From Ruminococcus sp. (GTDB taxonomy: Bacteria > Bacillota > Clostridia > Oscillospirales > Ruminococcaceae), in NCBI GenBank assembly GCA_017441505.1, contig JAFRXL010000022.1:1-64000 (forward strand): a DNA stretch of 64,000 nt. Reading direction: 5' to 3'. Below, piece by piece: positions 29,375 through 50,373 of this stretch (positions within the stretch are counted from its first letter, which is position 1; each line of letters begins with the position of its first letter). The position numbers and the translations under genes were made by a program. The notes below the pieces were generated by a model. It ran no database searches. It was not told where the DNA came from and saw only the letters and a list, made by a program, of their open reading frames with translations.

Positions 29375-30883
29375 ATGAATAATCTAAAGAAAATGTTTTC
29401 ATTCAAAACGGTTTATTCCGAAAACAAAACCTTTCTCGTTTTTTCTATCGGAAGAAAAGAAGAGATAAATTATTCACAGGTGCAAATGCTTGAAAGTGAT
29501 ACTTTCCGCAGCTATTTCCTGCCTTTTCAATGCACTAAAACTGCAAGCACTAATAAAATAAGCTTCAATATAAGCGGTCTTACTTCACTCTCAGAATACC
29601 TTAAAACTGAGATGAAACAGGAACAGTATTTTGAAATGATAGCCGGCATCCAGAAGATAATCTCTTTCTGCCAGAAATCCTATCTTTCTTACGATAACCT
29701 GATATGCGACCCTAAATATATGTACTATCACAACACCCTTAAAAGGATACTGATGATATATATACCGCTAAAAAATCCGCACTACGTCTGCGATAATATT
29801 CCCAAATGCCTTAAAAAGCTCCACAACAATGCCAAAAGCGTTATAATCACTGACGGCAACTACATGAATAAATACGAAAACTATCTTGCAAGATTCGCTA
29901 ATTCCGGAAACAAAAAAGGCACGAACTCTTTTTCACCCGATTCACTCCTGCATTTCTTCAACGAAAATGACGTAATAAATAATAATGCTCCTGTCGCTCC
30001 TGTAAACTACGAACCGGAACCGGTAAAGAATGATTTCTCCATAAACAGCCAGATAATACCTGTTATCCCGTCCGGAGAGCTCAATAACGACATCCGCTCA
30101 CAGATGTCCGGTCAGCATGAACGCATCGACTCTGATATAGAGAGAACTTCCAGTGCGACTGTGGTAAGGTCACGCAGAGATGAGGTCTTCCTCACAGACC
30201 AGTCCGGAAATAAATATACAATCCGCAACTTCCCGTTCACTATCGGAAGAAGCCGTGATAAGGACATGGTCATCCCACAGGATACCGTATCCGGAAACCA
30301 TGCAACCATAACCTCTGAAAACGGCAGATATTTCATAAACGACCATTCTTCCAACGGTACATACCTCAACGACGAAAACAACAAAATTTCCTACTGCGAG
30401 ATAAACAACGGCGATAAACTTTTCTTCGACAGCTTCTGCTACCTGTTCACAGTCGTAAAGGCAAACAGCGGCAATGAAGAGGACGATTCTTCAAGAACTG
30501 TAATGGTTTCAAGAAGACGGCAGCCTGAACAGCAGCAGCCTGCTCCGGAAGCTCAGGCAGTCCAGTCTGCTCCGGAAACTAATGAAGCTCCGGCCGTTCA
30601 GGAAGCTCCGGCATCTCAGAAAGCTCTTGCTTACCTAAAACGCATCTATGATGACCGTTTCATACGCATAATGGAGTATCCTTTCAGGGATGACGAGCTC
30701 CCCGGAGTTACCTTCTTTACTGAGGTCGTTAACAACCGTACTGCTATATTCCTTGAAAATGTCTCCTGCGGCACACTTGTATTTGAAAACGCTCTCGTCG
30801 CAAAAGGAACAACAGTCGAGATATTCTCAGGCTGTACATTATTCATAGACTGTGTAAAGTATACTTTCATAATCGAAAACTGA
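29375..30883 (+). CDS. FHA-domain protein with DUF6382-like N-terminus
   Basis: A 502-residue cytoplasmic protein that opens the secretion locus. Residues 1-195 form a helical domain resembling DUF6382; its LSYDNLICDPKYMY block looks like a worn kinase catalytic loop. An FHA phosphothreonine-binding domain lies at about 278-355, with FTIGRSRDKD, GNHA and SSNGTYLN, which are the key Arg, Ser, His and Asn positions. A Pro/Glu/Gln linker follows, with an SSRTVMVSRRR site near Thr374 that may be phosphorylated by the kinase two genes down. The last 80 residues have no clear family. An EssB-like role is possible but unproven. Confidence 0.82.
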   Translation: MNNLKKMFSFKTVYSENKTFLVFSIGRKEEINYSQVQMLESDTFRSYFLPFQCTKTASTNKISFNISGLTSLSEYLKTEMKQEQYFEMIAGIQKIISFCQKSYLSYDNLICDPKYMYYHNTLKRILMIYIPLKNPHYVCDNIPKCLKKLHNNAKSVIITDGNYMNKYENYLARFANSGNKKGTNSFSPDSLLHFFNENDVINNNAPVAPVNYEPEPVKNDFSINSQIIPVIPSGELNNDIRSQMSGQHERIDSDIERTSSATVVRSRRDEVFLTDQSGNKYTIRNFPFTIGRSRDKDMVIPQDTVSGNHATITSENGRYFINDHSSNGTYLNDENNKISYCEINNGDKLFFDSFCYLFTVVKANSGNEEDDSSRTVMVSRRRQPEQQQPAPEAQAVQSAPETNEAPAVQEAPASQKALAYLKRIYDDRFIRIMEYPFRDDELPGVTFFTEVVNNRTAIFLENVSCGTLVFENALVAKGTTVEIFSGCTLFIDCVKYTFIIEN

Positions 30884-30899
30884 TACAGGAGCCAACAGT

Positions 30900-31682
30900 A
30901 TGTTTATTTATTCTTATGTCACTACTGAGGGAATTGTCAAGAAAGTAAATCAGGATGCTCTTATGATAAAAACAGCCCGCCTTCACGGAAAAGAGATACT
31001 GTTCGCCGCTGTCTGCGACGGTATCGGAGGTCTTTCCGGCGGAGAGGATGCAAGCTCCTGCGTGATAAAGGCTGTGTCTGACTGGTTCGAGACAGAGTGT
31101 GCGGAGCTCATAAAAAACGACAGCGATATACTCGAAATAAGAACAAGCCTCGATGAAAGACTTCATAAGATCAATGACGCTATAAACGATGAATGTGCAA
31201 GAGGACGGGAAATGGGTACTACATTCACTTCTCTCCTTATAGATATGATCCACAATTCTGTACTTGTCGCCCATGTCGGTGATACAAGACTGTACAGGAT
31301 ATACGATAAGAAGCTTGAGATCATCACCTCTGACCATTCAATTGTTGCAGAAGAAGTAAGAAGAGGCATCATCTCAGCGGAATCTGCAAGATTCGATAAG
31401 CGTCAGAACCAGATAACCAACTGCATCGGTGCAGGAGAAACCGGCAGAATGTACGATTTTGCCATACAGTCCCCTGAGCAGAACTGCGTTTATATGCTCT
31501 GCTCTGACGGATTCAGAAAAATGGTATCACCGGAGGAACTGCATCAGGCTCTTATGCCTTCGGCAAATCCGGATCAGAACGCTCTGCATTCTTCACTGGA
31601 TCACCTCCTGAGCCTTAATATCGACCGCAAAGAAAGCGATAACATAACCGCTCTTGCAGTAATTCTTAAAGGAGATCGATAA
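30900..31682 (+). CDS. PP2C-type Ser/Thr phosphatase
   Basis: A 260-residue PP2C. The metal-binding acids are in place: VNQDA (Asp19), CDGIGG (Asp40), VGDTR, LCSDG and SDNITA near the C-terminus. It should remove phosphates put on by the kinase encoded three bases downstream, and so reset FHA binding. No membrane segment. In standard Ser/Thr signalling loci the phosphatase sits beside the kinase as here, but those usually lie near the ribosome or cell-wall genes rather than at a secretion locus. Confidence 0.95.
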   Translation: MFIYSYVTTEGIVKKVNQDALMIKTARLHGKEILFAAVCDGIGGLSGGEDASSCVIKAVSDWFETECAELIKNDSDILEIRTSLDERLHKINDAINDECARGREMGTTFTSLLIDMIHNSVLVAHVGDTRLYRIYDKKLEIITSDHSIVAEEVRRGIISAESARFDKRQNQITNCIGAGETGRMYDFAIQSPEQNCVYMLCSDGFRKMVSPEELHQALMPSANPDQNALHSSLDHLLSLNIDRKESDNITALAVILKGDR

Positions 31683-31685
31683 AAG

Positions 31686-33371: not shown

Positions 33372-33381
33372 GGAGAGATAA

Positions 33382-33834
33382 ATGGATTCTAATACATGGC
33401 GTGATATATCTCATATACTGCTTATATCCGGTATCGTCTTTCTGATACTGACCATTATTCTGGCTGTAAAATTCCAGCTGTTATCTATGATAAAAGCTGA
33501 ACTCAACCATAAAAAGAAAAAGATAAGTTCGGATAACAGAGATTACTTTGAATATGTTGAAAACAAAAACAGAAACAATATCGAAGCTATCTCCTCCTCT
33601 GAACGTTCAGGCTTCACTGAAAAAACAACAGCCGCAAGAAAAGCTGTTCCGCCGCCGGCAGTTGATGAAACTCCGGCAACGGTAGTCATATCATCAGCAA
33701 AGAAAAATGTGCAGCCTGCTAACATCGACGCTACAGTTTTGACCAGACGAAATAATGAGCAGAATGAAAATGAATTCATAATAACCGAAAATATCATCGT
33801 TATACACGGTGATCCGAATATTGTTTCTGTCTGA
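33382..33834 (+). CDS. Small single-helix membrane protein with candidate phospho-Thr sites
   Basis: A 150-residue protein with one membrane helix at residues 10-33 and a cytoplasmic-looking tail, basic just after the helix. The tail has two related sites, PATVVIS (Thr100) and DATVLTRR (Thr118), that match the RTVMVSRR site in the FHA protein. FHA domains often bind phospho-Thr with a following Val/Ile/Leu. It is therefore a likely kinase substrate and FHA partner. No known family. Starts ten bases after the kinase stop behind GGGAGAG. Confidence 0.7.
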   Translation: MDSNTWRDISHILLISGIVFLILTIILAVKFQLLSMIKAELNHKKKKISSDNRDYFEYVENKNRNNIEAISSSERSGFTEKTTAARKAVPPPAVDETPATVVISSAKKNVQPANIDATVLTRRNNEQNENEFIITENIIVIHGDPNIVSV

Positions 33835-33889
33835 TCTTTTCAGAACAGAAAACCAATGTATATCACTTAAAGGGTGGGTGTATTTATTT

Positions 33890-36800
33890 ATGGAGCCAAA
33901 AAAACATATGCTTAGAAAGACCGCTGCTTTTGCTGCTGCACTTTCTTTCCTGTCTGCAACCAATCTGAACATAATGAATTCAGCTGCTGAATCATCAACT
34001 GTTAAAAAGCAGGCAATAGCTTCAACTGTAAAGGAGCTTAACAATAACGTGTCATCTGCACAGTCAGAGCAGTCCCCAAGTGCAGGCACTGCAAAATCTA
34101 CTACAACGACAACAACTACTACCAGCACAACTACTACAACTACCACTACAACTACTACTGCACCGGTCACAAAATCAACTGAAATTCAGGTAGATATTGA
34201 TGTGAACGGCGATTTCAACACTATGAATAATCTTACAGTTCATTATGCATCAGAACTGCAAAAAGAGCTTACAGGATTATCACCATATATTTCTGTCGGC
34301 ACAAAATGCAGTTATTCCAGATTGTATTATCCGCATAATGTCGTCACCATTACATATCCGGAAAATCTTGAAAGCACAGTTAAGAATAGAATAAACAATT
34401 TAAAGGTCGAAAAAATTGAGAATGAAACATATTATGCATACGGATATAGCATTGAACATGAACAGTGGGAGTGTAAACGCTATTATAAACTGGAAGACTA
34501 TTCTGAATTTGCAAAATTTAATATCCCAAACACTAATTTGAAGAAAAACGGTAATGACTCTTACGTCAGCGAGGACTATGAATTTTCAGACAAATCTTTC
34601 ACTGTTGAAAAAAGAGAATATTATCTTGATGATTTTTCCGGTATAAAACCGACCGGAAAAGTTACACTAAATTACCTGACTATAAAGCTTAACGGAAAAG
34701 ACCATGAAATAAAATCAGCAAAAGTTAATATAACATTGACATTCGATAATTGTTACATTGAAGATGGGAATATAAAGCTGTACAGTAAGGAAATTAATTG
34801 TGAATGGAAGAATTTACAGAATGAAAAAATAACTATAAACTCAAAATCTGCAAACAATTTTATCATAGATAATAAATGGGATGCTCCTATACCTATAGAA
34901 TCTGAAAGTCAGACTATTGATATGGAAACCTTAGTAAAAAAATATACCGATTACTATGCAGACACAAATACCGATCCGCTGCCTAAAAATGGTGATATCA
35001 CCTTTAATATCTATGCATCACCAAGCGAGATAGGTGCTCAGCGTATATTCCAGAATAGTGAAGGTGAAGAAGATACTTCATTAGAAGATACATATTCCTA
35101 CAAGGTCGATCAGGATGACAATATAACTGTTCCATATGTTGTTAACAAAAACGGAAAAAATTACTACTTAGTGAGAGAAAGATCATATATCCTCAAAAAT
35201 ACCGCCCTCCCCGACACCGGTGAAGATTCTCCAAATCGTGAATATCGTTCAGCAAAAACTTTTTCGGCGACAGAAATATGCAGCAATTTATTTTCAAATA
35301 ACAGCCAAAGCTACTGTACTATAGATGCTCACGAAGATATAAACAACTTTTTTGTTGAACTCACATACAGAGAATTTCCGGATACCGAAATAATTGATTC
35401 TGATCCTCTGATAAAACTGTTTGCAAACAGTCTTAACGGAACTATCAAGGATGATGTTATCTTTGCAAAAAGACCAGCTCCGACCGGTGATGATAGTAAA
35501 AGATTAATATCCTTAAATCTCCCAGGATATGCCGGCCATGAAATAATAATAGTGGACGATGACAATAACAGCTCATCTGTAAAGGTAACGGCTGATGCGA
35601 CCGATGCCACTGTCGGAAAAGCTGTATATGAAGTTAAGGACGATACTAAATTCGTAAAAGTTGTCCTCGTAAAGAAGATCGGCAATAAAGACGTGCCTGT
35701 TGATACTCAGCCTTTCTTCGTCTACTTCGATGACCACCAGCCTGAAATTATAATAAAAAACAATCCGAATAAATGGTCAAATACAAATAATTACAAAATT
35801 GAATTTACTGTAAATGATAAAGACGACCTCTCTTCTGTACATCCGCTTTTCTGTGCAGATGCAGAAAAAATAAAGAAGCTTGAAGAGCTGAAAGCTATCA
35901 AATATATCAGCATCCTCGAACAGGAAGGCAGTTCTACTCTTCCGCTGGTAACCTATGAGCATAGATTTAATATCCCTGATACCATCGACGACCCAATAGA
36001 TTCATATACTTTAAAAGCAGATGATCTGTCTCAGGAAGCTGAAAACAAACTCAATGTCACGCTCATAAAGAAGCTCGATGAAAAAGGAAATCCATATTTT
36101 ACTGCCGAATTTTCTATGGCAGACAGTGCAGCTAAAGGTTACAGAGGTTATGTATATATTTATGCTGCCGCTGCTTCCGGAATACCTGCAATCTTTGTGC
36201 CATCGGACAAAGAACCAAGGCATCAGGTGATGATCGATATTGCTGCCCCGACAGTTACAAGCATAACTGCAACAGTTGAAGACAATAACCAGAACATAGA
36301 AAAATATTTAGAAAATGGTAAGAATATCAGGGTCAAAGCAGCAGCGACAGATAAATATGACGACTATCCATGCTGCGGTGTTGGTAAAAAAATCTATCAT
36401 TTTAATGGTCAGACTATTACTAAAGAAAAAGATCAACTTGATGACGATGTGATATTTGAGGTAAGAAGCGATAACTGTAACGACATCATCACGATAACAG
36501 TAGTTGACGGTGTCGGAAATTCTGATGATTTCTATTACTGCAATGATCCGGAAAACGGCAATGTTACAAAATATATATCAAAAGCTGAAAGAATAATCGT
36601 TGATAACATCTCTCCTTCAGAACCGGTATTAACAGCAGGCAAAGCCGATTTCACAGATGATAACAACACTCCTTTCCCACATGATGACAAAAACTGGTAT
36701 AAAAAATATGCTGATATATCGATCAAAGCAGAAGATGAAGGTGAAAGTGAAAACATTTCCGGCATAGCTGAACTGAGATTCATTTTCAATAATACTGAAA

Positions 36801-39800
36801 AGAACATTACTGTAGATACACTTTGTGATCCGGATAATTACGGTTTCCCTTCGGCTGATATACTTGTAAGTGAACTTGCAAAAGATAATGCGTGCTATCT
36901 GTGCTTTGTTCAGGATGAGATAAACAGTTCAAGATACCTGCCGTACCTCAGAGACAAAAATTATCCTTCTGTCAATGTAAAACTCACCGATTCCCCTATC
37001 AGTTTATATAACGACGGAAAATTTGAGTTGAAAATGCAGACTGCGGATAACTCCGGAAACGTAAGCCAACAGACTTCTATAGAAGTCTTCATCGACAATA
37101 ACGCTCCGACTTCCGACGGAATATTTGAAAAGGGAAATGCGGAACACAGCGACAGGACTGATGATTCCATCCATATGTACAAATACGGTACTTTCAGCAA
37201 CCACAGGATACAGATCAAAGTGCCTGTTTCTGACGGTCAGGACACAGTACCTTCATCAGGCTACCGTGATGCCTATCTTACCGTAACTAAAAAGGACGGA
37301 ACTGATGTAACATTCTTCTCAAATAAATTTGATAACGACTATGTTATATTCGAGCTGCCGGATAGTCTTGATGAAAATGAAGTTTTCTCCGGCACTATGA
37401 CAGTGTGCGTATATGATAAAGTCGGAAATAAATCAGAGGTGACCGCTCTTGTATCACCTCAGCCAGACAGCAGTGAAGTCCTGATACTCGAAAGGGTCGC
37501 TCCTGTTATCCCCGATGCTCCGCAGCTGAAAGGCAATGACCGCTATACAGACGGCGAAGGTAAAATATGGTTCAGCAGTGATGTTGCTTTAAGCTATAAT
37601 ATTTCCGATGCCGATTCCGGTCTTGCAAGAGCTCATATAATAAGAACTCACGAGGGCGAAGCTCCGGAAGCTCCTCAGGCCAAAGAATATACCGGCAAAA
37701 ATGTTATCACATCAAGTGATGTGCATACCATATCCACAGCCTCCGGAAAAGACGGAAGATTCGATTTCAACGTCTACGCAGAGGATAACGCAGGCAATCA
37801 TTCAGATAATTCATTCACGGTATATAAGGATACTTCAATACCTTATATCTACTCGTTCAGCTTCTCAGGACTTATAAAGAACAGCGACAGCGAGATATGG
37901 TTCAATAAAGCTCCGGCTAAGTACGGACACTTCCATAACAGCGACTACATCATGACCGTAACTGTAAAAGATGACCTCGGAGCAAGCTCCGGTATAAAGA
38001 ATATATACTGCGAGCTCTATAACGCTGACGGTTCATTGTTCAGGTCTTACGTATTCGATGCCTCATCATTCAGAAGTACGGGCGAGGCTGATACCTATTC
38101 TGCCGACTTCGCCGTACCTGAGGGATTCAAGGGCGATATAAGAGCATGGGCTGTCGATAACGTTGCTCACGAATCACAGAAAGCTTCACCTAACGGATTT
38201 ATATCAGAGAACAGAAATACTCACGATAACGCCTCATACAGCCATGTGACCATAACTCTGCCTTCAACAACAAAACACGATACCAGTGGCAGACCTCTGT
38301 ATAATCAGAACGTTGAAGCTAAGATAGAGATAACTGATATTCATTCCGGTATCGAGCAGATCCGCTGGAGAACTTCCGATACTCAGGACTGGATGGAGCT
38401 GAGAATAAACGCTGACGGAAATATCAGCGGAAACACTGAGGGCTGGGAAATACAGAAAAACGACAGGAATATCATCCAGAGCATTTCTAAAAATATCATC
38501 GTATCAAAAGATGCTAACGACGATTTCATTCAGGTCGCTATGAAGGATAATTCCCAGAATATATCCGAAGCAGAGGCAAGATTCAGCATTGATAAGCATA
38601 AGCCTGTCATAGCAGTTTCCGGAATCGAAAAGTCAGATCAGGTAAAATATTACAACACACATAAAACTGCTCATGTTGTCATATCTGAGCGAAATTTCGA
38701 CTCTCCTTCTGTAAACGGAACTGTTGATACAAGATTTGCTGACGATAACCGTACCGATAAGAACTCAGACCAGTTCAGACATACAAGAGACCTTCCTTTC
38801 AATTCCGACGGACGTTACAATCTGAACATAACTGATACCGACCTCGCCGGAAATGCCTCCGATGCCTATGCATCCGGTACATTCGTTATCGATACTATTG
38901 CTCCGAAAGCATCAGTAACTGTAAGAAAAGACAACGGAGTTACAGTCGCAAACGGAAAGAATACATACATTGAAAGTCCGGCACAGGCAACAGTAGTTGT
39001 CGATGAGATAAACTTCGACCCCCAGCTCGTCAGCATAACCATAAACGGCAAAGCTTTCACACCAAGCGGCTGGAGCGGTACAAATTCTCATTCCGCTTCT
39101 ATACCTGTGAGCTACTTTACAAATGACGGCTCATACACTATCTCTGTATCCGGCAAGGACCTTGCAGGAAATACTCTGAAAACTACTGCCGTTTCGTTTA
39201 CTGTCGATAAAAAAGAGCCTGAAATAAATATCACAGGTGTATCCTCAGCTAATAAGGACACCGTTGCTCCTGTTGTCAATATCAAAGACAGCAACCTTGA
39301 TTCTCAGAACGTAAAGGTATACAGAAATGGTCAGCCGCTGAAGCTCACAACAGAAAATAACGGTCAGACAGCTAAATACGATGTAGACGGCAGCGGCAGC
39401 TTCATCACTGCTAACTGGGTCGAGGAAAACGATAACAGTGACATCAAAAAGAAGCTCGTATTCGATAACTTCCCGACCGACGAGGTTTTCGACGGTTCAT
39501 ACAGGATAGAGGTCGAAACTGCTGATAAAGCTGAAAACACATCCTCTGAAGATCTCGAATTCACTGTAAACAGACACGGTTCTGTATTTGCTGTGCAGAA
39601 TGCGGAGGATATAAACGGAAAATATCTCAATAAAGCTCCTACTATCGTCATAACAGAGCGAAATGTAGACAAGCATAACTCCGACTCTGAAATAATCATA
39701 ATAGTCGACAAGGGCTCAAATACAGTCAAGCTGACAGACAGAGAGTATGAAGTTTCCGAGCCTGTAGCTTTATCGGATAATTCGGGATATGAGTACACCT

Positions 39801-40324
39801 ACACTATCCTTCCGGAAGTATTCGATCAGGACCTTAACTACAATATCTCTATACAGTCAGTCGATGCTGCCGGAAACAAGAACGTAAGCTCCGGAAGAGG
39901 TGCTGAGGTAAGCTTTGACCTCGATACTCAGGAACCTGAATTCAAGTGCGATGACCTCGCAGATAAGGCTGAATTCAGAGAATCCGAAAAGGAATTCAGA
40001 ATTAATGTAAACGAGAAGATAAAGCATATCAAAGTTTCAACAAGCAGCGATGAAGTCCTTCTGGACATTGATCCGGAAGACGGAGAGAACAGCTATGTAT
40101 TCAGGATACCGGCTTCAAACAGCTCCCGTGATATTACGATAGAGATCACAGACCTTGCCGGAAATACCACTGTAAAAACATACAGCGATCTGCTCATAAC
40201 CGAAAATATCGCTCTTTATATGATGCATAAGTCATGGGTAAAGATAACCGGTATATCAGTACTTGCAGGTCTTGGTGCTATAGGCGGACTGCTGTTCGTA
40301 AGAAAAAAGAGAAAGAATAGATGA
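33890..40324 (+). CDS. Giant Ig-repeat surface protein, C-terminally membrane-anchored
   Basis: The 2144-residue protein starts at 33890 after GGGTGGG; its first 33 residues make a secretion signal. A poly-Thr run (residues 71-90) follows. The central ~1700 residues are a row of Ig-like beta domains, marked by repeats of D(T/N/K)..P, AGN.S and SERNFD-type motifs, well kept toward the C-terminus. A membrane helix and basic tail end it, with no LPxTG sortase motif. The N-terminal ~500 residues are less repetitive and unidentified. It sits inside the secretion locus, so it may be the extracellular conduit or an adhesin for the host cell; this is inference. Confidence 0.85.
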   Translation: MEPKKHMLRKTAAFAAALSFLSATNLNIMNSAAESSTVKKQAIASTVKELNNNVSSAQSEQSPSAGTAKSTTTTTTTTSTTTTTTTTTTTAPVTKSTEIQVDIDVNGDFNTMNNLTVHYASELQKELTGLSPYISVGTKCSYSRLYYPHNVVTITYPENLESTVKNRINNLKVEKIENETYYAYGYSIEHEQWECKRYYKLEDYSEFAKFNIPNTNLKKNGNDSYVSEDYEFSDKSFTVEKREYYLDDFSGIKPTGKVTLNYLTIKLNGKDHEIKSAKVNITLTFDNCYIEDGNIKLYSKEINCEWKNLQNEKITINSKSANNFIIDNKWDAPIPIESESQTIDMETLVKKYTDYYADTNTDPLPKNGDITFNIYASPSEIGAQRIFQNSEGEEDTSLEDTYSYKVDQDDNITVPYVVNKNGKNYYLVRERSYILKNTALPDTGEDSPNREYRSAKTFSATEICSNLFSNNSQSYCTIDAHEDINNFFVELTYREFPDTEIIDSDPLIKLFANSLNGTIKDDVIFAKRPAPTGDDSKRLISLNLPGYAGHEIIIVDDDNNSSSVKVTADATDATVGKAVYEVKDDTKFVKVVLVKKIGNKDVPVDTQPFFVYFDDHQPEIIIKNNPNKWSNTNNYKIEFTVNDKDDLSSVHPLFCADAEKIKKLEELKAIKYISILEQEGSSTLPLVTYEHRFNIPDTIDDPIDSYTLKADDLSQEAENKLNVTLIKKLDEKGNPYFTAEFSMADSAAKGYRGYVYIYAAAASGIPAIFVPSDKEPRHQVMIDIAAPTVTSITATVEDNNQNIEKYLENGKNIRVKAAATDKYDDYPCCGVGKKIYHFNGQTITKEKDQLDDDVIFEVRSDNCNDIITITVVDGVGNSDDFYYCNDPENGNVTKYISKAERIIVDNISPSEPVLTAGKADFTDDNNTPFPHDDKNWYKKYADISIKAEDEGESENISGIAELRFIFNNTEKNITVDTLCDPDNYGFPSADILVSELAKDNACYLCFVQDEINSSRYLPYLRDKNYPSVNVKLTDSPISLYNDGKFELKMQTADNSGNVSQQTSIEVFIDNNAPTSDGIFEKGNAEHSDRTDDSIHMYKYGTFSNHRIQIKVPVSDGQDTVPSSGYRDAYLTVTKKDGTDVTFFSNKFDNDYVIFELPDSLDENEVFSGTMTVCVYDKVGNKSEVTALVSPQPDSSEVLILERVAPVIPDAPQLKGNDRYTDGEGKIWFSSDVALSYNISDADSGLARAHIIRTHEGEAPEAPQAKEYTGKNVITSSDVHTISTASGKDGRFDFNVYAEDNAGNHSDNSFTVYKDTSIPYIYSFSFSGLIKNSDSEIWFNKAPAKYGHFHNSDYIMTVTVKDDLGASSGIKNIYCELYNADGSLFRSYVFDASSFRSTGEADTYSADFAVPEGFKGDIRAWAVDNVAHESQKASPNGFISENRNTHDNASYSHVTITLPSTTKHDTSGRPLYNQNVEAKIEITDIHSGIEQIRWRTSDTQDWMELRINADGNISGNTEGWEIQKNDRNIIQSISKNIIVSKDANDDFIQVAMKDNSQNISEAEARFSIDKHKPVIAVSGIEKSDQVKYYNTHKTAHVVISERNFDSPSVNGTVDTRFADDNRTDKNSDQFRHTRDLPFNSDGRYNLNITDTDLAGNASDAYASGTFVIDTIAPKASVTVRKDNGVTVANGKNTYIESPAQATVVVDEINFDPQLVSITINGKAFTPSGWSGTNSHSASIPVSYFTNDGSYTISVSGKDLAGNTLKTTAVSFTVDKKEPEINITGVSSANKDTVAPVVNIKDSNLDSQNVKVYRNGQPLKLTTENNGQTAKYDVDGSGSFITANWVEENDNSDIKKKLVFDNFPTDEVFDGSYRIEVETADKAENTSSEDLEFTVNRHGSVFAVQNAEDINGKYLNKAPTIVITERNVDKHNSDSEIIIIVDKGSNTVKLTDREYEVSEPVALSDNSGYEYTYTILPEVFDQDLNYNISIQSVDAAGNKNVSSGRGAEVSFDLDTQEPEFKCDDLADKAEFRESEKEFRINVNEKIKHIKVSTSSDEVLLDIDPEDGENSYVFRIPASNSSRDITIEITDLAGNTTVKTYSDLLITENIALYMMHKSWVKITGISVLAGLGAIGGLLFVRKKRKNR

Positions 40325-40337: not shown

Positions 40338-41270
40338 ATGATAAATTTCAATGAACTGAAAAATAAAGAAATGATTACCGGACATGATGTCGGAAAACTG
40401 ATAATCTGCAATGATATATATTCATATGCCAAACAGTCCGGAGCCGATCAGTACAAGGAATTTACCCCTGTAACTCAGGAAGAGCTGGATATGCTCATAG
40501 AGAAGATAGACACCTATGAAGAGGCGGATATTCTTGAATGCTATGTACAGCTCCAGAACTTTATAAAATACGCTCAGGCTATGTCATATGCTTACAATCA
40601 GCAGGCTCAGAACGGTTTCTGCCGTCTGCTGATGTATATGACTCAGGCACAGCAGGTCGAACACGCAAGACGCATGATAGAGCTGCTGCCGATGATAATG
40701 ACCAATTCTCAGTTCAGCGAAATGAGAAATCCCGGCGAGCTTGCAAGACTAAGGGGAGTAGCTGTCGTTGCGGACAGCTTCCCTTGCCGTCCTAAGTGCC
40801 TTGATGCCCACGATCACTTCATTGAACCAGAAATAGATTGCTTCCAGGAAATGATGAGCCTTGAACATTCTGAAACTATGGAGGATAAGATCGCTTATTT
40901 CCGCAATGACCTCATGCTTAAAGGTCTGGAGTATCAGAATGCCTATAATAAGCTCTTTGAGCTTATCGCCGAAAGGATAGATATACCTGAGTTCACTGTA
41001 TTCTGCACCGATACAAGCGAGATCGTTAAACAGATCGGAGAATTCAACGTTCAGCGAGTTGATATGGAAAACGAGATCGCCGGCGAAGGTGAAGAATATG
41101 AAAATAAAAAAAGAATACTGAAAAAAGTATTCATGCCTATCGACCTGAATGAAATAAGGATAACAGAAGAAGCTGTAAAAGCAGTCAGAGAAAAGCTCGA
41201 CGATATAAGAATATTCCGTACTTCTGTAAACGACCTTGTAAAGCTTCTCCTGCCTGATAGGAGGACATGA
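40338..41270 (+). CDS. Uncharacterised helical protein of the secretion locus
   Basis: A 310-residue protein with no recognised domain, no signal peptide and no membrane segment. Predicted mostly helical, with a Met/Gln-rich stretch at about 90-115 and an acidic stretch at about 250-258. Its stop overlaps the start of the next gene. It lies between the giant surface protein and a replication-initiator-like protein, upstream of yukD and essC, so a structural or chaperone part in the secretion system is possible but not shown. Start at 40338 behind CAGGTGAT. Confidence 0.7.
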   Translation: MINFNELKNKEMITGHDVGKLIICNDIYSYAKQSGADQYKEFTPVTQEELDMLIEKIDTYEEADILECYVQLQNFIKYAQAMSYAYNQQAQNGFCRLLMYMTQAQQVEHARRMIELLPMIMTNSQFSEMRNPGELARLRGVAVVADSFPCRPKCLDAHDHFIEPEIDCFQEMMSLEHSETMEDKIAYFRNDLMLKGLEYQNAYNKLFELIAERIDIPEFTVFCTDTSEIVKQIGEFNVQRVDMENEIAGEGEEYENKKRILKKVFMPIDLNEIRITEEAVKAVREKLDDIRIFRTSVNDLVKLLLPDRRT

Positions 41271-42241
41271 TGGGATACACAAAAGGTATCGACGGAACTT
41301 CATCGACCATCGGACAAGTTCTTGAAACTAATCTACAGGTAAATTCGGTTTCAAGAAATGCCTTCCGTATCATGAAGCAGTCTTCCGCTATGAACAAACT
41401 CTCTACCTTAAAAATAACAAAGAAAATGGCTTCCGGTCCGGAAGATGAAGTTTGCATAGAAAAAGACAATCTGAAAATATCATTTGAAAATCTCGCCGGT
41501 CTTGGAAACGGACTAAAAACTACTACTCACCGGCTCGCAGATGCACTTATGATAAAATTCACGGAACTCGGCTCAAAAGAACAGATAGTAACTCTTTCGC
41601 TTGATGAGTATATGAGACTTTGTGAGCTGAAAAATACAACAGAGATGCGAAAACAGGTCAATGCCGACCTGAAAACGCTCCTCAATATGCGTGTAAGCTT
41701 CCAGAAATCTTCAAACAGAGAACAGAGTATGCAGGACATCAGACTTTGTACCAATGTGAAGATAAAAAACAATATCATCTTCTTTACTTTCAGCGATGAA
41801 TTTTTCATCATAATGAAGACCATGCCGGTAATGCCTTATCCGGAAAAGCTTTTCAGGATAAACCTTAAAAAGAATCCTAACAGCTATTATTTCCTGAAAA
41901 AAATTTCCGAGCATAAGAAGATGAACTATTTCAAGAAAAATGCCGATACTCTCAGCGTTAAGACCCTGCTGAGCTGTACTCCGGAGCTTCCCTCCTACGA
42001 CGAGGTCGTCAATACTGACAGAGCCGTAGGAAGACGCATTATCGAACCGTTTGAAAGAGATATGAACGAGCTTTCAGACCTGCTCAGGTGGGAATACTGT
42101 CATTCAAACGGCACTAAACTAAGCGATGATGAGCTGGTAAACTTCAATTACCATATCTTCTACGGACTGCTCATCAAGATAAAATGGCGTGAATATCCAA
42201 AGCTTGAACGCAAGAAAAACAAAGTATCCAAAAGCAAGTAA
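41270..42241 (+). CDS. Replication-initiator-like protein in the secretion locus
   Basis: A 323-residue cytoplasmic protein. Its central and C-terminal parts recall Rep winged-helix initiators of Clostridia plasmids: FRINLKKNPNSYYFLKK, then LSVKTLL...PSYDEV, and a GRRIIEPFE...L..LLRWEYC block. Basic C-terminus. Two ATGs (41267, 41270) overlap the upstream stop; the second fits GGAGG spacing better. A Rep-like protein is out of place in a secretion operon. It could be a repurposed DNA-binding regulator. Family assignment is by pattern memory and moderate. Confidence 0.65.
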   Translation: MGYTKGIDGTSSTIGQVLETNLQVNSVSRNAFRIMKQSSAMNKLSTLKITKKMASGPEDEVCIEKDNLKISFENLAGLGNGLKTTTHRLADALMIKFTELGSKEQIVTLSLDEYMRLCELKNTTEMRKQVNADLKTLLNMRVSFQKSSNREQSMQDIRLCTNVKIKNNIIFFTFSDEFFIIMKTMPVMPYPEKLFRINLKKNPNSYYFLKKISEHKKMNYFKKNADTLSVKTLLSCTPELPSYDEVVNTDRAVGRRIIEPFERDMNELSDLLRWEYCHSNGTKLSDDELVNFNYHIFYGLLIKIKWREYPKLERKKNKVSKSK

Positions 42242-42250
42242 GCTGTAAAG

Positions 42251-42299
42251 AACCTGTCAGCATGGCGTATCCGAAAGGCTTAGAACCTGCTGACAGGTT
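42251..42299 (+). other. Long stem-loop between Rep-like gene and yukD
   Basis: Perfect 12-base arms AACCTGTCAGCA (42251-42262) and TGCTGACAGGTT (42288-42299) enclose a 25-base loop that holds a second small hairpin (CCGAAAGG). Only weak T-richness follows. It may be an attenuator or processing site that sets yukD/essC levels. Confidence 0.7.
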
Positions 42300-42322: not shown

Positions 42323-42574
42323 ATGAATAAAATAATCGTTCAGGTCTATCTTCCTGCTAACGGAAAGACCTATGATATAAGACTTCCCGAGGATATGTAT
42401 GTCCACGATGCTGCGGACATACTCGGCGACCTTTTTGCCGATGCGGCAAAGGGTCTTTACTGCAAGGGCGATGTAAATATACTCTGTTTCCTTGATAAGG
42501 GAGAAAGTCTTCCTCAGGACAAAACTCTTAAAGAACTTAATATCTGCAACCGCACAAAATTAATGTTCGTATGA
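42323..42574 (+). CDS. yukD: YukD/EsaB-like ubiquitin-fold protein
   Basis: An 83-residue protein with the beta-grasp pattern of YukD/EsaB: IIVQVYLPANGKTYDIRLPEDM at the start, LKEL near the end and CNRTKLMFV as the last strand. EsaB-type proteins are small cytoplasmic parts of type VII systems. No C-terminal Gly-Gly, so it is not a conjugated ubiquitin. ATG 42323 lies after AAAGGAGC; the GTG at 42308 is unlikely. It precedes essC by 22 bases, an arrangement seen in other type VII loci. Confidence 0.88.
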   Translation: MNKIIVQVYLPANGKTYDIRLPEDMYVHDAADILGDLFADAAKGLYCKGDVNILCFLDKGESLPQDKTLKELNICNRTKLMFV

Positions 42575-42596
42575 TCCAATATAAAGGGGTGAGATA

Positions 42597-45500: not shown

Positions 45501-47288
45501 AAAGTTAGAAAACCTGAAATAAAAGTCAACAAGAACAAGCGTACAGTTTCTCAGCTGATAGCTGTAAGAAATTACCTCATAGACATTGCAAAGGATATGG
45601 ATGTAAGACCTCTATGGCTCGACCCTATCCCTGCAAAGCTCTCTCTCAAAGCACTCTACAGCGAGCTTGGAGAGCGTAAATACAGGGACAATTACGTGCC
45701 GCTCGACCCTGTTATCGGTAAGCGTGATGACCTGTACAACCGCATTCAGGAGATAATGACAGTGCCGTTCTCTGAGAAAGGAAATCTCATAGTATACGGA
45801 GCTGCCGGAAGCGGTCTTGATATGTTCTTCATTTCTTTCATCTACTCGCTCATCTATGCCTATAATGCAGATCAGGTGAACATATATGTACTTGATTTTG
45901 ATGCCGGATTCCTTAAAGTATACGAAAAAGCTCCGCAGTTAGGGGACGTTGTTATCGAAGAGGAAGAGGAGGATGTCAAGAACATTATAAGCTCCATAAG
46001 CGATGAGATAAACAGAAGAAGCAAGCTTTTCTCTGAGTACAGAGGTGAATATTCAGAATACTGCAAGTACTCCGGAAGCACTCTCCCTAACATCGTGCTT
46101 ATCCTCAACAACTATACTGCCTTTATGGAAAAATTCAACGAGGGCATAACTTCTCAGCTTATCTACATCGCAAGAGAAGGCGTTAAAAGAGGTGTATATG
46201 TAGTTGTAGGAACTCCTTCCATAAACACCAATTTCCGTCTGAGACAGTATATCCAGCAGACATTTATGCTGAAAATGAACGATGTAAACGATTATGTCGG
46301 AATACTCGGACGTACCGGCGGCATCACTCCTTCCGACTGTGCAGGAAGCGGTATCGTAAAAGAGAACGATATTACATATAAATTCCAGACTGCCGATATT
46401 TTCGACATTATCCCTTCGGAAGATGAAGCAGACGAGATAATCCTCGATTCTGCCAAGGAAATAAGAGACCTCTGCGAGGATATAAACGAAAACTGGAACG
46501 GAAAATCAGCACATTCATTTAAGCATATTGAAATAAATACAGAAAATGTACTTTCCGATGATGTATCATGGAAGAGCATCCCTCTCGGTACAGCAGATGA
46601 TACCGTTTTAACCTATGATATGAGCGATAAATACATAACCTTTGTTTCTTCCGTTTCCGAAGAGCATCTTACCCGTTTTGCCGGATATATCACAAAGGCT
46701 CTTGCAAAGGATGACTCTATCTCTGTAGTCCTCCTCGACAGCTCGGGAGAACTCAGACCGGATGAAGAGGTTAACTATAAATACTACTCAACAGTTGAAG
46801 AATTCGATGAATGGAACAAGTTCTACAAAGCAGATGCCGAAGAAAGATGCAGCAAGCTGATAAAAAATGAACAGGGCGAGATAGTCATGAGCGAAGACGC
46901 AAAACACGTCTATGTCGTTATAAACTCCTTCCAGAAAGCTTCAAAGATAGCCGATCTCAACGTAACTTTCAATAACTTCAAGCTCATTATCAACGAACTT
47001 CCGGAGGTACACTATCACTATGTTATTCTTGATACACAGAATGATATGAACGCCGACAGAGGTGCATATGTCCACATAGTCAAGAACCTTACAGACATCA
47101 CCTCTCTTGATAATTTCGACATTGAAAATAACAGAGAGTGGTTCGATGCTTCGGGTATATGGCTCGGCGGAAGCTTATCCAGAAACGGATTATTTACTAT
47201 CGAGAACACTCCGCCTATGCTCACGGAAAGCGAAGGAATTATCATAAGAAATAAGACCGCTGAGAAGAAATTCCGTTATTTTGTGTGA
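42597..47288 (+). CDS. essC: Type VII secretion ATPase EssC/YukB
   Basis: A 1563-residue motor ATPase. An N-terminal FHA-like domain (about 105-170) has FSIGKKSDND, GYHA and SRNGTYV. Two membrane helices at about 260-310 are followed by a basic stretch, then FtsK/SpoIIIE-type ATPase domains. Domain 1 has Walker A TTGSGKSES (about residue 710) and IVDYKGGGL, with Walker B FIVCDEFAEL. Domain 2 at about 1065 reads AAGSGLD, so the Lys is lost, and domain 3 lacks a P-loop too. Domain 1 thus appears to do the main ATP hydrolysis. It sits just before the WXG100 genes. Confidence 0.96.
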   Translation: MLLITFLQNEFINTTVLPDKKKGHYKLNHGISSLTEDINIDGIDNKWIISGGNEYSIYRYSDDDNAELVQQAELTSDDVLTIDIAGTRCILIVETIKDEKNRFNKICFNNPSSQKFSIGKKSDNDIVLDDTYISGYHALISKENGVWKVTDRQSRNGTYVNNRRIDGEYELNIGDVVFIVGYKFIICADFIAANIDFDKNVKGRGLSKVIFPKFVRPVKKSESYDDYFYRTVDLGEKAPDLPEIKLLPPEHMHKVDEQPAILSMGSAMTMSTATVLVAAYSGLAAYYRGTNISYVVPSFIMAGSMVLSSLLWPNLIRKRRKKDMRIREAQRIKEYQDYIMDLRAAVNVMLDNEKEYLCNKFLTAEQCMMRVINHDRFLWSKSINDEDFLSAAIGTGKRESAIQVKYTEDADTFFKDDLRYDMMQFAHDERILYDVPITISLNKGCICGISGEKAAAYDLIKEIVVQLTSLYSYDELKLIFICGEDEDEKWDYVKWLPHTWNSENSFRYFSSSADELKELAAELEKEIDNRMTHPQNDFPKMLVIASNKKYMDSLDIMSVIMKNRASLNISILTAFGMYNYNNSNIIIEISGEGAKVYDRKNSDVSEFRPYTVPTALDSPVINFENYLDTISNIKLDITNEKYQLPKMITFLDMFKVSKVEHLNSLTRWAENNPIKSLKTEIGASPSGDVFFIDMHEKYHGPHGLIAGTTGSGKSESIITVILSLAVNYSPEEVAFVIVDYKGGGLADAFNDVKEEVIDGKTVEVSYKLPHVVGTVTNLDGSTIERACISIETEIKRRQILFKKARKISNEGTMDIYKYQQLRREGADLEVLPHLFIVCDEFAELKADRSDFMDLLVSAARIGRSLGVHLILATQKPDSVVSPQIWSNSRFKICLKVQGKEDSKAVIQCPDAAEISTTGRFFFQVGYNEVFSMGQSAWCGADYIEAEDFVKSDIESAEVIGNTGNIIYEKVRKPEIKVNKNKRTVSQLIAVRNYLIDIAKDMDVRPLWLDPIPAKLSLKALYSELGERKYRDNYVPLDPVIGKRDDLYNRIQEIMTVPFSEKGNLIVYGAAGSGLDMFFISFIYSLIYAYNADQVNIYVLDFDAGFLKVYEKAPQLGDVVIEEEEEDVKNIISSISDEINRRSKLFSEYRGEYSEYCKYSGSTLPNIVLILNNYTAFMEKFNEGITSQLIYIAREGVKRGVYVVVGTPSINTNFRLRQYIQQTFMLKMNDVNDYVGILGRTGGITPSDCAGSGIVKENDITYKFQTADIFDIIPSEDEADEIILDSAKEIRDLCEDINENWNGKSAHSFKHIEINTENVLSDDVSWKSIPLGTADDTVLTYDMSDKYITFVSSVSEEHLTRFAGYITKALAKDDSISVVLLDSSGELRPDEEVNYKYYSTVEEFDEWNKFYKADAEERCSKLIKNEQGEIVMSEDAKHVYVVINSFQKASKIADLNVTFNNFKLIINELPEVHYHYVILDTQNDMNADRGAYVHIVKNLTDITSLDNFDIENNREWFDASGIWLGGSLSRNGLFTIENTPPMLTESEGIIIRNKTAEKKFRYFV

Positions 47289-47470
47289 AAAAATGGTGGG
47301 TTTTTACAGCAAAAAGAGCGGAAACCTTCAGCAATATAAAGGGTAAAAAACAGCAAAAAAATTTTTTATGGTCAAAATTTGCCGATATTCCGTGACTTAT
47401 TGGACACCCAAAATTTAAAATAACTAAAATTTTAACCCGTGCATTTTTAAAATACCCCAAAATACAAATG

Positions 47471-47479
47471 TGGTATAAT
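47471..47479 (+). promoter_or_regulatory. Extended -10 promoter of the WXG100 genes
   Basis: The 255-base gap after essC holds TGGTATAAT (TGn-TATAAT), about 65 bases before the first WXG100 gene, without a good -35 box. This gives the two small secreted proteins their own, likely strong, transcription. The gap is otherwise AT-rich, without a clear terminator for essC. Confidence 0.7.
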
Positions 47480-47543
47480 ATATTCAACAAAGCAAGAGAT
47501 GCTTTGAAAACGATCAATTATTTATTAATAGGAGGAATTAAAA

Positions 47544-47864
47544 ATGGCAAACAATTCAATTCGTTACAGTGAAGGTACAGATTCCGTTATAAACACTGCT
47601 ACCCAGATCTCTGAACTCGGTGATGAATTCTTCAGAGAATACACACAGCTTTATAATTTAGTTGAAGGCGATATGGCATCTAACTGGAAGGGCGAAGACT
47701 TCGATGCTTTCAAGCAGAGAGTAAATGACGAAAAGCACTTCTTTGAAACAATGAGAGACATTATCACAGAGTATGCTACTTTCCTTCGCAACACAGCTAA
47801 TGCTCATGAAGCTCGTATGGAAGACAGTAAAACTCAGGTTGATTCAAACTGTTCTTTTGATTGA
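47544..47864 (+). CDS. WXG100 family secreted protein
   Basis: A 106-residue helical hairpin protein with the W-x-G turn as NWKGED (about residues 47-52) and no signal peptide. Such proteins dimerise and leave through EssC, usually with a C-terminal targeting signal. Starts behind AGGAGG at 47544. It is 64 bases upstream of a second protein of similar size. Confidence 0.93.
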   Translation: MANNSIRYSEGTDSVINTATQISELGDEFFREYTQLYNLVEGDMASNWKGEDFDAFKQRVNDEKHFFETMRDIITEYATFLRNTANAHEARMEDSKTQVDSNCSFD

Positions 47865-47928
47865 TCTTACCGCAAACACAAGTAATAAACTATAATAAAT
47901 CAATTGTTTTTTTAGGAGGAATTTTATC

Positions 47929-48243
47929 ATGGCTAACAGAGAATTATTTATAAGCCCAGAAGCAATCAGAACTTGTGCTTCTAATATCAATACATATGCT
48001 GATCAGATCAAGGATACTCTTGATAATCTCGTTGTAAAAATGGACAGCACAGAAGCTTTATATCAGGCACAGAGTGCTGTGGATATGAGAGAAAAGTTCA
48101 CAGAACTTAAACCTGAATTCGAGAAGTTCACAGCTTACCTCAGAAAGGTAGCTACATACCTCGTTCAGAACGTTGCAGATCCAGCAGATGTAACAGATCA
48201 GGTTGCATCTCAGAACGTTGCAAACATTAAGAAGCCTCGCTAA
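47929..48243 (+). CDS. WXG100-like partner protein without the WxG motif
   Basis: A 104-residue helical protein, probably the partner of the preceding WXG100 protein, as in EsxA/EsxB-type pairs. The turn reads YQAQSA, where WxG is expected. No signal peptide. Starts MANRELFISPEAIRTCASN behind TAGGAGG. Similar size, helical content and context support the family; the missing motif is odd but is seen in some partner subunits. Confidence 0.83.
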   Translation: MANRELFISPEAIRTCASNINTYADQIKDTLDNLVVKMDSTEALYQAQSAVDMREKFTELKPEFEKFTAYLRKVATYLVQNVADPADVTDQVASQNVANIKKPR

Positions 48244-48263
48244 GTAAACTCATGAAACAGCAC

Positions 48264-48307
48264 GCCGGATACGGTCATTTCTTCCCGACAAAAATGACTG
48301 TTCCGGC
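48264..48307 (+). other. Stem-loop after the WXG100-like pair
   Basis: The stem GCCGGA/TCCGGC (48264-48269 and 48302-48307) with an inner GTCATTT/AAATGAC stem (48274-48280 and 48292-48298) forms a stable hairpin without a T-run. It could protect the 3' end of the WXG100 mRNA or partly terminate before the lipoprotein gene. Confidence 0.6.
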
Positions 48308-48342
48308 ATAATCAACAATTAAATATTTAAAGGTGGTTTAAG

Positions 48343-50373
48343 ATGATATTTAAACGTATAATATCAGCGATGACTGGTGCTGCCTTGCTTACATCCTATA
48401 TGTCCGTTCTTTCCGGATGCAGCTTGAAGGAGTTCTTCAATAATTCAAGCTCAAGCTCAGATACATCTGAGGATAAAGCCGATGACGGAGTTCTCACAAA
48501 CGGTGAGTGGCTGTCAATGGTCAATGATGCATTCGGTATGCAGGTCGACGAAGAAGCAGAAGACGGCGAACTCGATGCAGCAAGGGAATGGGGAGTTATC
48601 GGTGAAAGTGAAGAAATCGACAAGAATGCTCCTGTAGATGATAAATTCGTTACCACTACTCTGATGAGAGCAGCCGGATTTGCTGACGAGAATTCTACTG
48701 ATGAAGAGGTCATAAATGCCGCTATCGAACACGGCGTTCTCAAGGATTCAGAAACTCCTCTTACTGATCCTACAGCAGCTGCTGAAACTCTTATACAGGC
48801 TCAGAACGAATGGGCTAATCAGGAATTTGAAGAGCATCGTAATGTTGATCTCGTAGAAGGCGTTCAGAACTTTGATGAAAAACTGAAAACAACAGACTTT
48901 GAGATCAAAGACGATTTTATCGTACTCCCGACAGAGTACGCTCAGACACTTACCAAAGACAGTGTATTCATCCTTCCAAAAGACGAAGAAACAGGCAAGG
49001 GCGGTGCCTATAAGGTAGTTGCTACTGTTGACAACGGCGACGGCACAACAAATGTTAAGGGAGTTGCTGCTAAGCCGGAGGAAATATATTCAAAACTTGA
49101 TGTTTCCGGTAAGATCGCTCCTGATCTCAGTAAATTTGAACCTTCTTCTGACCCGAGAGTTTCATTCAACGGTACAGAAGCAACCGGAGTCTCTTACGCA
49201 CAGCCAGAAGACTTCACTGTAAGACCTCTCAGCTATACAGGCTATAATGGTGACCAGCCTATTAAGGCTATGGCTTCTGTAGGATTAAATTCAATCGACT
49301 TCTCGATCGATCTCAATGATGATCTTACATTAAGTACAAGTGTTCATGACATTTCATTGAATGCTGATATTGACTGGGATTTCGGAATCTTCTCTGGTCT
49401 TGATGTTAACAGAGTTTACATGGCTATAAAATATAGTTCTGAGATCTCAATAGAATCTACACTGTTTGACCTTGACGATGTTACCAAAAAGAAATTTGAA
49501 CATGAACCTTCTATCGAACTTGGTAAGATACCGGTTTATATATGCCCGGGTCTTTCAGTAAATCTCAGATTTGAACTCTGCCTTGAAGCAAGCGGTAAGA
49601 TCAAGCTTTCATTCACAACAAATAATACAAAGGGCTTTGAAATGAAGGGTTCAAGCTTCCGTGCTATCGATGAATGCTCAAAGAGCGTTGACCTCCTCCT
49701 TACAGGTGAAGCTGGTATTTACTTCAAGATAATACTTGCACTCAGCCTTGATTATGCTATAGGTGAGGTCGATCTTCTCAGCCTTGAACTCAAGTTAGGT
49801 CCAAATGCTAAGGCAGAAGCTAAAGTACATAAAGAGAGCGGCAAGGATCCTCTCGTCTGCCTCGATATAGGTGCTTCGTTTAAGGTGGAACTTAAACTAT
49901 ACCTTATGAAGACGCTAATGGAGATCATAGGTGCCGAAGCCTCGATAACGCTCATAGATTATGATAAGAGTCTCTGGAATCGTCATTTTGAAAACTTCAA
50001 GCAAGTTCCAAAGTGTACAGCTGATGAAGAAGCAACTACCGAAGCAGTTGAAACAACTACTATTCCAACAGGTAACTTCGAGCTTGCTGATGCTTATGTA
50101 TCACTCGAAGCTGGTCAGAGCGGAAGAATCGGCGTTAAATCCCTCCCATCCGGCTACACTGTAAATGACCTCGTATGGTCTTCAAGTGATACCTCTAAGG
50201 TAACTGTAGATCAGAACGGTAATGTAAACGCTATCGCAGGCGGTACTGTCAGCATCACAGTTAAGACCAAGGATGGAAAGAATATAAGAAACTGTGCGGT
50301 TATGGTAAAATCCAAAGTTAACCTCGCAGACAATACAGGACAAAATAATACAGTACAGCTTTTAGCTGCATGA
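48343..50373 (+). CDS. Large lipoprotein with Big_2 Ig-like C-terminus
   Basis: A 676-residue lipoprotein (lipobox LSGC, Cys26). The region of about 45-160 looks like worn S-layer-homology-type repeats, with LTNGEWLSMVNDAFG and similar motifs. A long middle part of alternating strands follows. The C-terminus (about 590-660) has the Big_2 pattern, with VWSSSD and VNAIAGGTVSITVKT. Anchored outside the cell at the secretion locus; it may hold or receive secreted proteins. It stands behind the WXG100 pair and ends at a strong terminator. Confidence 0.75.
   Translation: MIFKRIISAMTGAALLTSYMSVLSGCSLKEFFNNSSSSSDTSEDKADDGVLTNGEWLSMVNDAFGMQVDEEAEDGELDAAREWGVIGESEEIDKNAPVDDKFVTTTLMRAAGFADENSTDEEVINAAIEHGVLKDSETPLTDPTAAAETLIQAQNEWANQEFEEHRNVDLVEGVQNFDEKLKTTDFEIKDDFIVLPTEYAQTLTKDSVFILPKDEETGKGGAYKVVATVDNGDGTTNVKGVAAKPEEIYSKLDVSGKIAPDLSKFEPSSDPRVSFNGTEATGVSYAQPEDFTVRPLSYTGYNGDQPIKAMASVGLNSIDFSIDLNDDLTLSTSVHDISLNADIDWDFGIFSGLDVNRVYMAIKYSSEISIESTLFDLDDVTKKKFEHEPSIELGKIPVYICPGLSVNLRFELCLEASGKIKLSFTTNNTKGFEMKGSSFRAIDECSKSVDLLLTGEAGIYFKIILALSLDYAIGEVDLLSLELKLGPNAKAEAKVHKESGKDPLVCLDIGASFKVELKLYLMKTLMEIIGAEASITLIDYDKSLWNRHFENFKQVPKCTADEEATTEAVETTTIPTGNFELADAYVSLEAGQSGRIGVKSLPSGYTVNDLVWSSSDTSKVTVDQNGNVNAIAGGTVSITVKTKDGKNIRNCAVMVKSKVNLADNTGQNNTVQLLAA

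Follow-up and report, generated by a model that had tools for sequence, protein, structure and literature searches.

Organization of the locus

The window analysed here is a stretch of 64,000 nucleotides (nt) of a Ruminococcus sp. contig (JAFRXL010000022.1, positions 1 to 64,000; assembly GCA_017441505.1). Between positions 29375 and 50373 it carries a type VII secretion system (T7SS) locus of twelve open reading frames (ORFs), all on the + strand (Table 1). These encode, in order, an FHA protein, a PP2C phosphatase, a transmembrane (TM) kinase, a small membrane protein, a giant Ig-repeat protein, the plasmid-type pair P0006-P0007 (hereafter X1-X2), a YukD-like protein, the EssC ATPase, two WXG100-type proteins and a lipoprotein. 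A sequence-only reading of the window had listed twelve genes on one strand at this place, and all are present. The tight spacing that it described holds up to position 47288, where the gaps measure 3-81 nt with a single 4-nt overlap, and gives way to wider gaps (255, 64 and 99 nt) 3' of essC.

The locus is a T7SSe-type (T7SSe/j) cassette of the Ruminococcus flavefaciens group, that is, a published type and not a new one. Three features lie beyond the published component list: the X1-X2 pair, an array of TV[VLI] motifs in the tail of P0004, and a cohesin-like gene found in relatives. None of these had been noted in the sequence-only reading, nor had the changing place of the cassette on the chromosome.

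The source genome (2.24 Mb, 57 contigs) is 79.55% complete and absences from it are therefore weak on their own. Among named relatives, the closest found is a sheep-rumen Ruminococcus metagenome-assembled genome (L119; 99% identity for P0007), and the locus is also carried by R. flavefaciens 007c (L121, taken as G207) and FD-1 (L136, taken as G198). P0009 has a match at E<=1e-100 in 22 of 125 genomes of the genus. Fourteen of these belong to the window clade (EssC identity of at least 46%) while the other eight show 31-38% identity.

Table 1. Features of the T7SS locus in the window
Feature	Position	Strand	Length	Assignment	Evidence
P0001	29375..30883	+	502 aa	TseJ-like DUF6382 + FHA protein	DUF6382 42.7 bits, FHA 57 bits, both over cut-off (Pfam)
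P0002	30900..31682	+	260 aa	TseF-like PP2C phosphatase	PP2C_2 over cut-off; Stp1/IreP model 2.1e-45, under equivalog cut-off
P0003	31686..33371	+	561 aa	TseD-like transmembrane Ser/Thr kinase	Pkinase 2e-34
P0004	33382..33834	+	150 aa	TseK/H-like small membrane protein	TVVI and TVLT motifs in tail
Giant protein	33890..40324	+	2144 aa	TseI-like Ig-repeat protein	Big_13 over cut-off, Big_3_2; signal and C-terminal TM by eye
P0006 (X1)	40338..41270	+	310 aa	Helical partner of plasmid initiator	X1 hidden Markov model (HMM); AlphaFold2 (AF2) pLDDT 83.4
P0007 (X2)	41267..42241	+	324 aa	Rep3/RepB-type initiator-like winged-helix protein	Overlaps X1 by 4 nt
Inverted repeat	42251..42299			Possible attenuator or operator between X2 and yukD	Perfect 12-nt arms
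P0008	42323..42574	+		TseB, YukD/EsaB ubiquitin-like	PF08817 E 0.013, sub-threshold
P0009	42597..47288	+	1563 aa	TseC, EssC ATPase with N-terminal FHA domain	TIGR03928 829 bits (cut-off 778); FHA 64.8 bits
P0010	47544..47864	+		TseA-like WXG100 protein	WKG motif; 21.3 bits, under cut-off
P0011	47929..48243	+		TseA2-like WXG100-fold protein	No WXG motif; 30.4 bits, over cut-off
P0012	48343..50373	+	676 aa	Lipoprotein with C-terminal Big_2 domain	Last gene
Terminator-like hairpin	50384..50414	+		Closes the unit	14 pairs, T tail; consensus match only

The kinase cassette and the missing membrane components

The sequence-only reading reported a T7SS tied to a kinase/phosphatase/FHA cassette and lacking recognisable EsaA, EssA and EssB. 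As an observation this is confirmed. Its novelty is not, since both the association and the lack of these proteins characterize the published T7SSe/T7SSj type, the latter being described as a trait of T7SSe in PMC11217815 (Garrett, Higginson and Palmer 2024). The EssB model found no match in the source genome and none over cut-off in 12 relatives carrying the locus (sub-threshold matches in four, 7.8-13.1 bits). The EsaA N-terminus was likewise absent from the source genome and over cut-off in none of the 12 relatives (one sub-threshold match, 8.9 bits). For EssA, searched in the source genome only, the sole match was sub-threshold (10.1 bits, at 56770-56958). Ten of these relatives are at least 90% complete and nine of the ten are also at most 5% contaminated.

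Synteny of the kinase cassette with essC, the loss of which would have counted against the earlier reading, is retained: a kinase gene is present in 17 of the 18 clade loci whose upstream side can be read (window included), the sole exception being R. flavefaciens 007c. Five further loci (G249, G314, G303, G304 and G490) are truncated by contig ends and uninformative on this point. The kinase P0003, the phosphatase P0002, the FHA reader P0001 and the FHA-bearing EssC, P0009, are co-encoded and conserved together. The giant protein is not universal; it is unlabelled at the 007c locus and beyond P0004 in the stretches examined of G362 and L134. The suggestion that the FHA protein fills the place of a missing membrane part found no support: inspection by eye revealed no TM segment in P0001, nor did a hydropathy scan of its G288 homologue.

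Threonine motifs in the P0004 tail

By eye, P0004 consists of a hydrophobic helix at about residues 13-35, a basic stretch and a tail that was taken as cytoplasmic. The tails of the family carry [AGN]-T-V-[VLI] motifs, and relatives show tandem arrays of as many as six. Across 17 homologues, that of the window among them, TV[VLIF] occurs 44 times against 3.64 expected from shuffles, a statistic inflated by the inclusion of tandem duplicates and related sequences. At least one copy is present in 16 of the 17 tails and at least two in 14. The strict copy number per tail varies from 0 to 6, the longest arrays being those of G427 (six) and G201 (five). With a looser pattern, threonine motifs outnumber serine motifs 47 to 4, whereas the tails contain 202 threonine and 213 serine residues (Fisher p 5e-12, a value inflated by the relatedness of copies and species). 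FHA domains bind phosphothreonine and are not known to read phosphoserine.

The candidate readers are encoded in the same locus. The phosphothreonine-binding residues GR, S, H and N of the P0001 FHA domain are kept in all 15 aligned sequences (window included), bar one X in G232. In the EssC FHA domain, S and H are found in 17 of 17 aligned sequences and NGT in 16. A similar array occurs in G191 (L039/L040) and G842 (L172/L173), whose T7SS has another gene order (C-B-..-J-..-D): there, the gene directly 3' of the kinase gene encodes a zinc-ribbon protein with a single TM segment and seven tandem TVLL repeats, which suggests a wider rule. As a sequence feature, the P0004 motif array speaks for phosphorylation control of secretion.

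Outside the array, the last ~20 residues of the P0004 homologues form a conserved end block resembling F-V-I-x-E-N-I-I-V-I-H-G-D-P.

A plasmid-type replication pair within the secretion operon

The two proteins encoded between the giant protein and YukD had been listed as unknown. Both are identifiable as members of a plasmid replication pair. P0007 matches Rep3_N marginally (22.5 bits, cut-off 22.4), a domain that is also found on one of its plasmid homologues. In tblastn searches it matched nine plasmid records, six of them over at least 80% of its length (best 2e-36). Four of the nine matched features are annotated as RepB family plasmid replication initiator, the best of these at 5e-29. 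On the Streptococcus plasmid p29887, the X1 HMM matches the gene that lies just 5' of repB and overlaps it (54 bits; E 1.5e-15, small database), and in C. methylpentosum it matches the partner gene with 45 bits. By homology, therefore, P0006-P0007 are related to a plasmid replication module. In L140, L141 and the plasmid stretch L185, the frame just 5' of the initiator homologue is absent among the 15 matches listed for the P0006 profile, though it occupies the same position.

Pfam assigns no family to the p29887 partner gene (within L186:3482-6020), a P0006 homologue that is, as far as Pfam goes, an undescribed partner of this type of initiator. C. methylpentosum (L138:1-10864, taken as G131) carries a P0006-P0007-like pair with no T7SS genes in the stretch examined; a recombinase-like frame (by eye) lies ~8 kb 5' of this pair.

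Scanning GTDB genomes with a P0007 profile yielded 26 loci. At all 19 with at least 62% identity, P0006 lies directly upstream and P0007 is open. Either yukD or essC follows P0007 directly in the 18 of these where the contig continues (in L120 it stops 233 nt beyond P0007). The other seven loci (identity of at most 43%) show no T7SS gene in the stretches examined. Conversely, among 18 other stretches (17 with distant EssC, and G288) the best matches were 6.8 bits for the P0007 profile and 18.5 bits for the P0006 profile, the latter to a 139-aa frame of G842. As far as sampled, the pair thus appears particular to the window clade.

Among the proteins of the locus, P0007 ranks first in conservation in 9 of the 12 relatives that have it. 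It ties with YukD in G260 (99%), while YukD is ahead by three points in G250 and by one in G427. In the four most distant relatives (G282, G198, G362 and G490) P0007 retains 62-67% identity compared with 46-48% for EssC, and the kinase, found in three of the four, retains 34-38%. For 17 loci, 13 of the 14 splits of the EssC tree recur in the P0006 tree and 11 in the P0007 tree; when labels were shuffled in the P0007-EssC comparison, 0.29 splits were shared on average and never more than four. The slow evolution of P0007 and its open frames in the 19 close loci point to constraint rather than to a relic. In G362 (taken as L135), L134 and L132, the J-F-D-K genes (P0001 to P0004) are oriented away from X1-X2-C-B, where C is essC and B yukD. 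The distance from the X1 start to J is 233 nt, 252 nt and ~2.2 kb, respectively.

The inverted repeat between X2 and yukD has hairpin-like counterparts (by eye) in 5 of 10 relatives; G303, G232, G135, G201 and G427 have nearly no X2-yukD spacer. A direct-repeat search of four stretches of the window found no iteron array. A 19-nt-spaced repeat at 29240-29275 was considered as an iteron or operator and rejected, being AT-rich and not evidently common to relatives. Regulation of the cassette is inferred to be the likeliest present role of X1-X2.

Chromosomal position

The cassette sits between BirA (28135-29202) and SpoIID (50416-51453), in a neighbourhood of housekeeping genes that also includes citrate synthase. 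SpoIID loci were compared in 30 of 119 matching genomes, two being the window and G260. In 5 of the other 28 loci of the genus SpoIID is followed by BirA within ~80 nt, that is, the junction is empty; no BirA was found in the remaining 23 within the stretches of up to 1.5 kb examined. Among the loci whose flanks were compared, only G260 matches those of the window and G288 matches those of G304. Other matches involve one or two genes, several of which encode P0012-like lipoproteins, and the flanks of several loci are short, down to one frame. Judged by these flanks, the cassette has changed its place on the chromosome as one unit.

Proposed mechanism and alternatives

In the mechanism proposed here, P0003 would sense the outside through its extracytoplasmic helical C-terminal half and phosphorylate the P0004 tail on the cytoplasmic side of the membrane. 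P0001, and perhaps also the FHA domains of EssC, could then be gathered at the membrane through several pT-V-x-x sites. This gathering would switch the assembly or activity of the EssC ring, and P0002 would reset it. The giant Ig protein may span the wall, as proposed for TsdI/TseI in PMC11217815. The plasmid initiator pair would have joined the cassette and stayed with EssC through the sampled divergence, most probably acting as a DNA-binding transcriptional regulator. The overall reading, a T7SSe-type cassette with a kinase-phosphorylated P0004 recruiting FHA readers and a Rep pair as regulator, is given a probability of about 0.45, its phosphorylation, docking and regulatory steps being inferred. 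The stronger formulation, in which T7SS assembly would be set by a variable-length multivalent phosphothreonine tail and expression run by a captured, co-inherited initiator pair, is tentative and rather doubtful as a whole.

Several observations weigh against this reading. Of the 17 aligned EssC FHA domains, only three retain the GR arginine (GK in nine, the window among them, GQ in four, GT in one), which makes docking of EssC doubtful and slightly lowers the odds of the full model; in PMC11217815 the phosphothreonine-binding consensus of the TseC FHA domain is called well conserved. The P0004 of G198 has no strict TV[VLIF] and carries only ATMVV, and the inflation of the motif counts noted above also has to be considered. 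The 007c locus lacks the kinase, P0004 and the giant protein. Two members of the same genus, G288 and G304, have a T7SS without X1-X2, so that the pair is not essential. Finally, by eye, no operator or iteron common to the upstream regions of relatives was seen.

The locus might alternatively be a plain T7SSe in which X1-X2 is the leftover of a plasmid or integrative element that carried the cassette and the TV motifs are low-complexity drift. The gene content does fit the T7SSe described in PMC11217815, and a leftover pair would agree with the differing chromosomal sites, the empty SpoIID-BirA junctions, the T7SS of G288 and G304 that manage without it, and the C. methylpentosum pair, ~8 kb 3' of a recombinase-like frame and apart from T7SS genes. 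Yet few proteins of the locus evolve as slowly as P0007, which is open in all 19 close loci, and the bias of threonine over serine and the tandem expansion of copies argue against drift. This explanation is possible, if on the whole unlikely. That X1-X2 still initiates replication, with the cassette belonging to a mobile element able to replicate or excise, appears improbable. In its favour are the kinship of X1-X2 with RepB-type initiators and the gene preceding them, the varying insertion sites and the patchy spread (clade EssC in 14 of 125 genus genomes), but none of the twelve proteins of 29375-50373 matched a recombinase, relaxase or partition family, and the housekeeping neighbours and the lack of an iteron array in the stretches searched also speak against it.

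A different objection concerns the array itself. The P0004 array could be a decoy or buffer for the kinase instead of a docking platform, with the FHA domains reading other phosphosites such as the flanks of the FHA domain of P0001 itself, an intramolecular switch like that of GarA and OdhI. TVV/TVM motifs do flank this domain in some P0001 homologues, that of the window included. They are, however, fewer and not universal (among the 15 examined, G362 and L134 have none and L132 a single one, at residue 11), and we regard this explanation as quite improbable.

Under the preferred reading of a phosphothreonine platform combined with a regulatory initiator pair, the P0004 array would be a concrete candidate answer to two questions left open for T7SSe in PMC11217815, the target of the kinase and the ligand of the FHA domains. 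An initiator pair fixed in a secretion operon and evolving more slowly than the ATPase would, if this reading is true, represent an unusual reuse of replication genes. The pair also bears on a question raised in PMC11217815, that of plasmid carriage of T7SS variants other than T7SSa. Under the stronger formulation given above, the locus would be a secretion system under control taken from a replicon, with a phospho-docking platform whose sites can be counted.

Other genes of the locus and of its relatives

P0003 has a single TM segment and shows the K, HSD, KPEN and DFG motifs, a complete catalytic set. Its AF2 model (pLDDT 81.8) resembles PknB in the kinase half (Foldseek 1.3e-12). The C-terminal half is helical in this model, and profile searches matched it to OGT chains only (best E 0.1), which bears on the tetratricopeptide repeat domain that T7SSj kinases have in this part. 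The start of the giant protein was taken as the ATG at 33890; a GTG start at 33809 is likewise open. P0008 was taken as TseB because of its position next to essC and its conservation, despite its sub-threshold score.

Homologues of P0012 are found 3' of the two WXG100 genes (A1-A2) in many relatives. A second A1-A2-lipoprotein set without an EssC of its own lies 5' of the T7SS in R. flavefaciens 007c (L121:2876-5602). Neither LXG effectors nor further WXG100 proteins were found over cut-off in the incomplete source genome.

In 12 of the 15 loci where P0004 and the giant protein are both readable, an extra gene is located between them (e.g. L126:1720-2715 and 11 others). By eye, its product comprises a signal peptide, a folded domain, a Thr-rich linker and a C-terminal TM segment. 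A profile of 10 such proteins matched a solved cohesin domain (5.4e-8), an 'autonomous cohesin' (0.0026) and, at only 0.16, a ScaE scaffoldin chain. This cohesin-like gene is absent from the window, G260 and G288, and in G362 and L134 it was not labelled beyond P0004 in the stretch examined. A cohesin at a secretion locus of cellulosome-forming ruminococci raises the question of dockerin partners.

Comparison with known systems

By title, the literature search found T7SSe treated in PMC11217815 alone, and for R. flavefaciens and type VII secretion it returned only general adhesion and biofilm work. The components given for T7SSe in PMC11217815 are A, A2, B, C, the kinase D, the PPM phosphatase F, H, K, I and J. 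TseH and TseK have a single TM segment and a short cytoplasmic part, J combines DUF6382 with FHA, and I is giant and Ig-like, with a signal peptide and a C-terminal TM segment in the T7SSd case. The authors had already raised the idea of phosphorylation control and of an EsaA-like envelope-spanning role of the giant Ig protein. The window shares with T7SSe the A, A2 and B proteins, the FHA-bearing C, the kinase D, the PP2C phosphatase F, the giant I, the DUF6382-FHA protein J and a single-TM protein with a short cytoplasmic tail. It differs in having one small TM protein where T7SSe has two (H and K), in the insertion of X1-X2 between I and B and in the terminal lipoprotein. The cohesin-like gene is a further addition in the 12 loci mentioned above (the window being counted among the 15), and the TV[VLI] array is not mentioned for T7SSe in the available part of PMC11217815.

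As the only small TM protein found in the operon, P0004 could be either TseH or TseK. If P0004 is K, the composition A, B, C, D, F, I, J and K without H would fit T7SSj, which PMC11217815 reports from a small Clostridium subset only; the second WXG100 protein and X1-X2 distinguish the window from it. The subtype call is based on gene content.

With T7SSb (Ess/Yuk) the window shares the FHA-bearing EssC, YukD and WXG100 proteins. In contrast, EsaA and EssB were not found over cut-off in the source genome and 12 relatives, nor EssA in the source genome, and the kinase has complete motifs whereas EssB is a pseudokinase; a likeness in topology between EssB and the kinase was drawn for TscD in PMC11217815. 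The relation of X1-X2 to the Rep3/RepB initiators of Streptococcus plasmids such as p29887 is seen in the 27% identity of P0007 over 94% of the query and in the likeness of P0006 to the gene upstream of repB. The window pair is nevertheless chromosomal, lies inside a secretion operon with no iteron seen, and evolves slowly. A functional parallel to the proposed control is the PpkA-PppA-Fha switch of the type VI secretion system, in which a kinase and an FHA reader likewise act on a membrane protein of the secretion system (PMC3953482, PMC11217815). That machine is unrelated, and the multi-copy motif array is a feature of the window locus.

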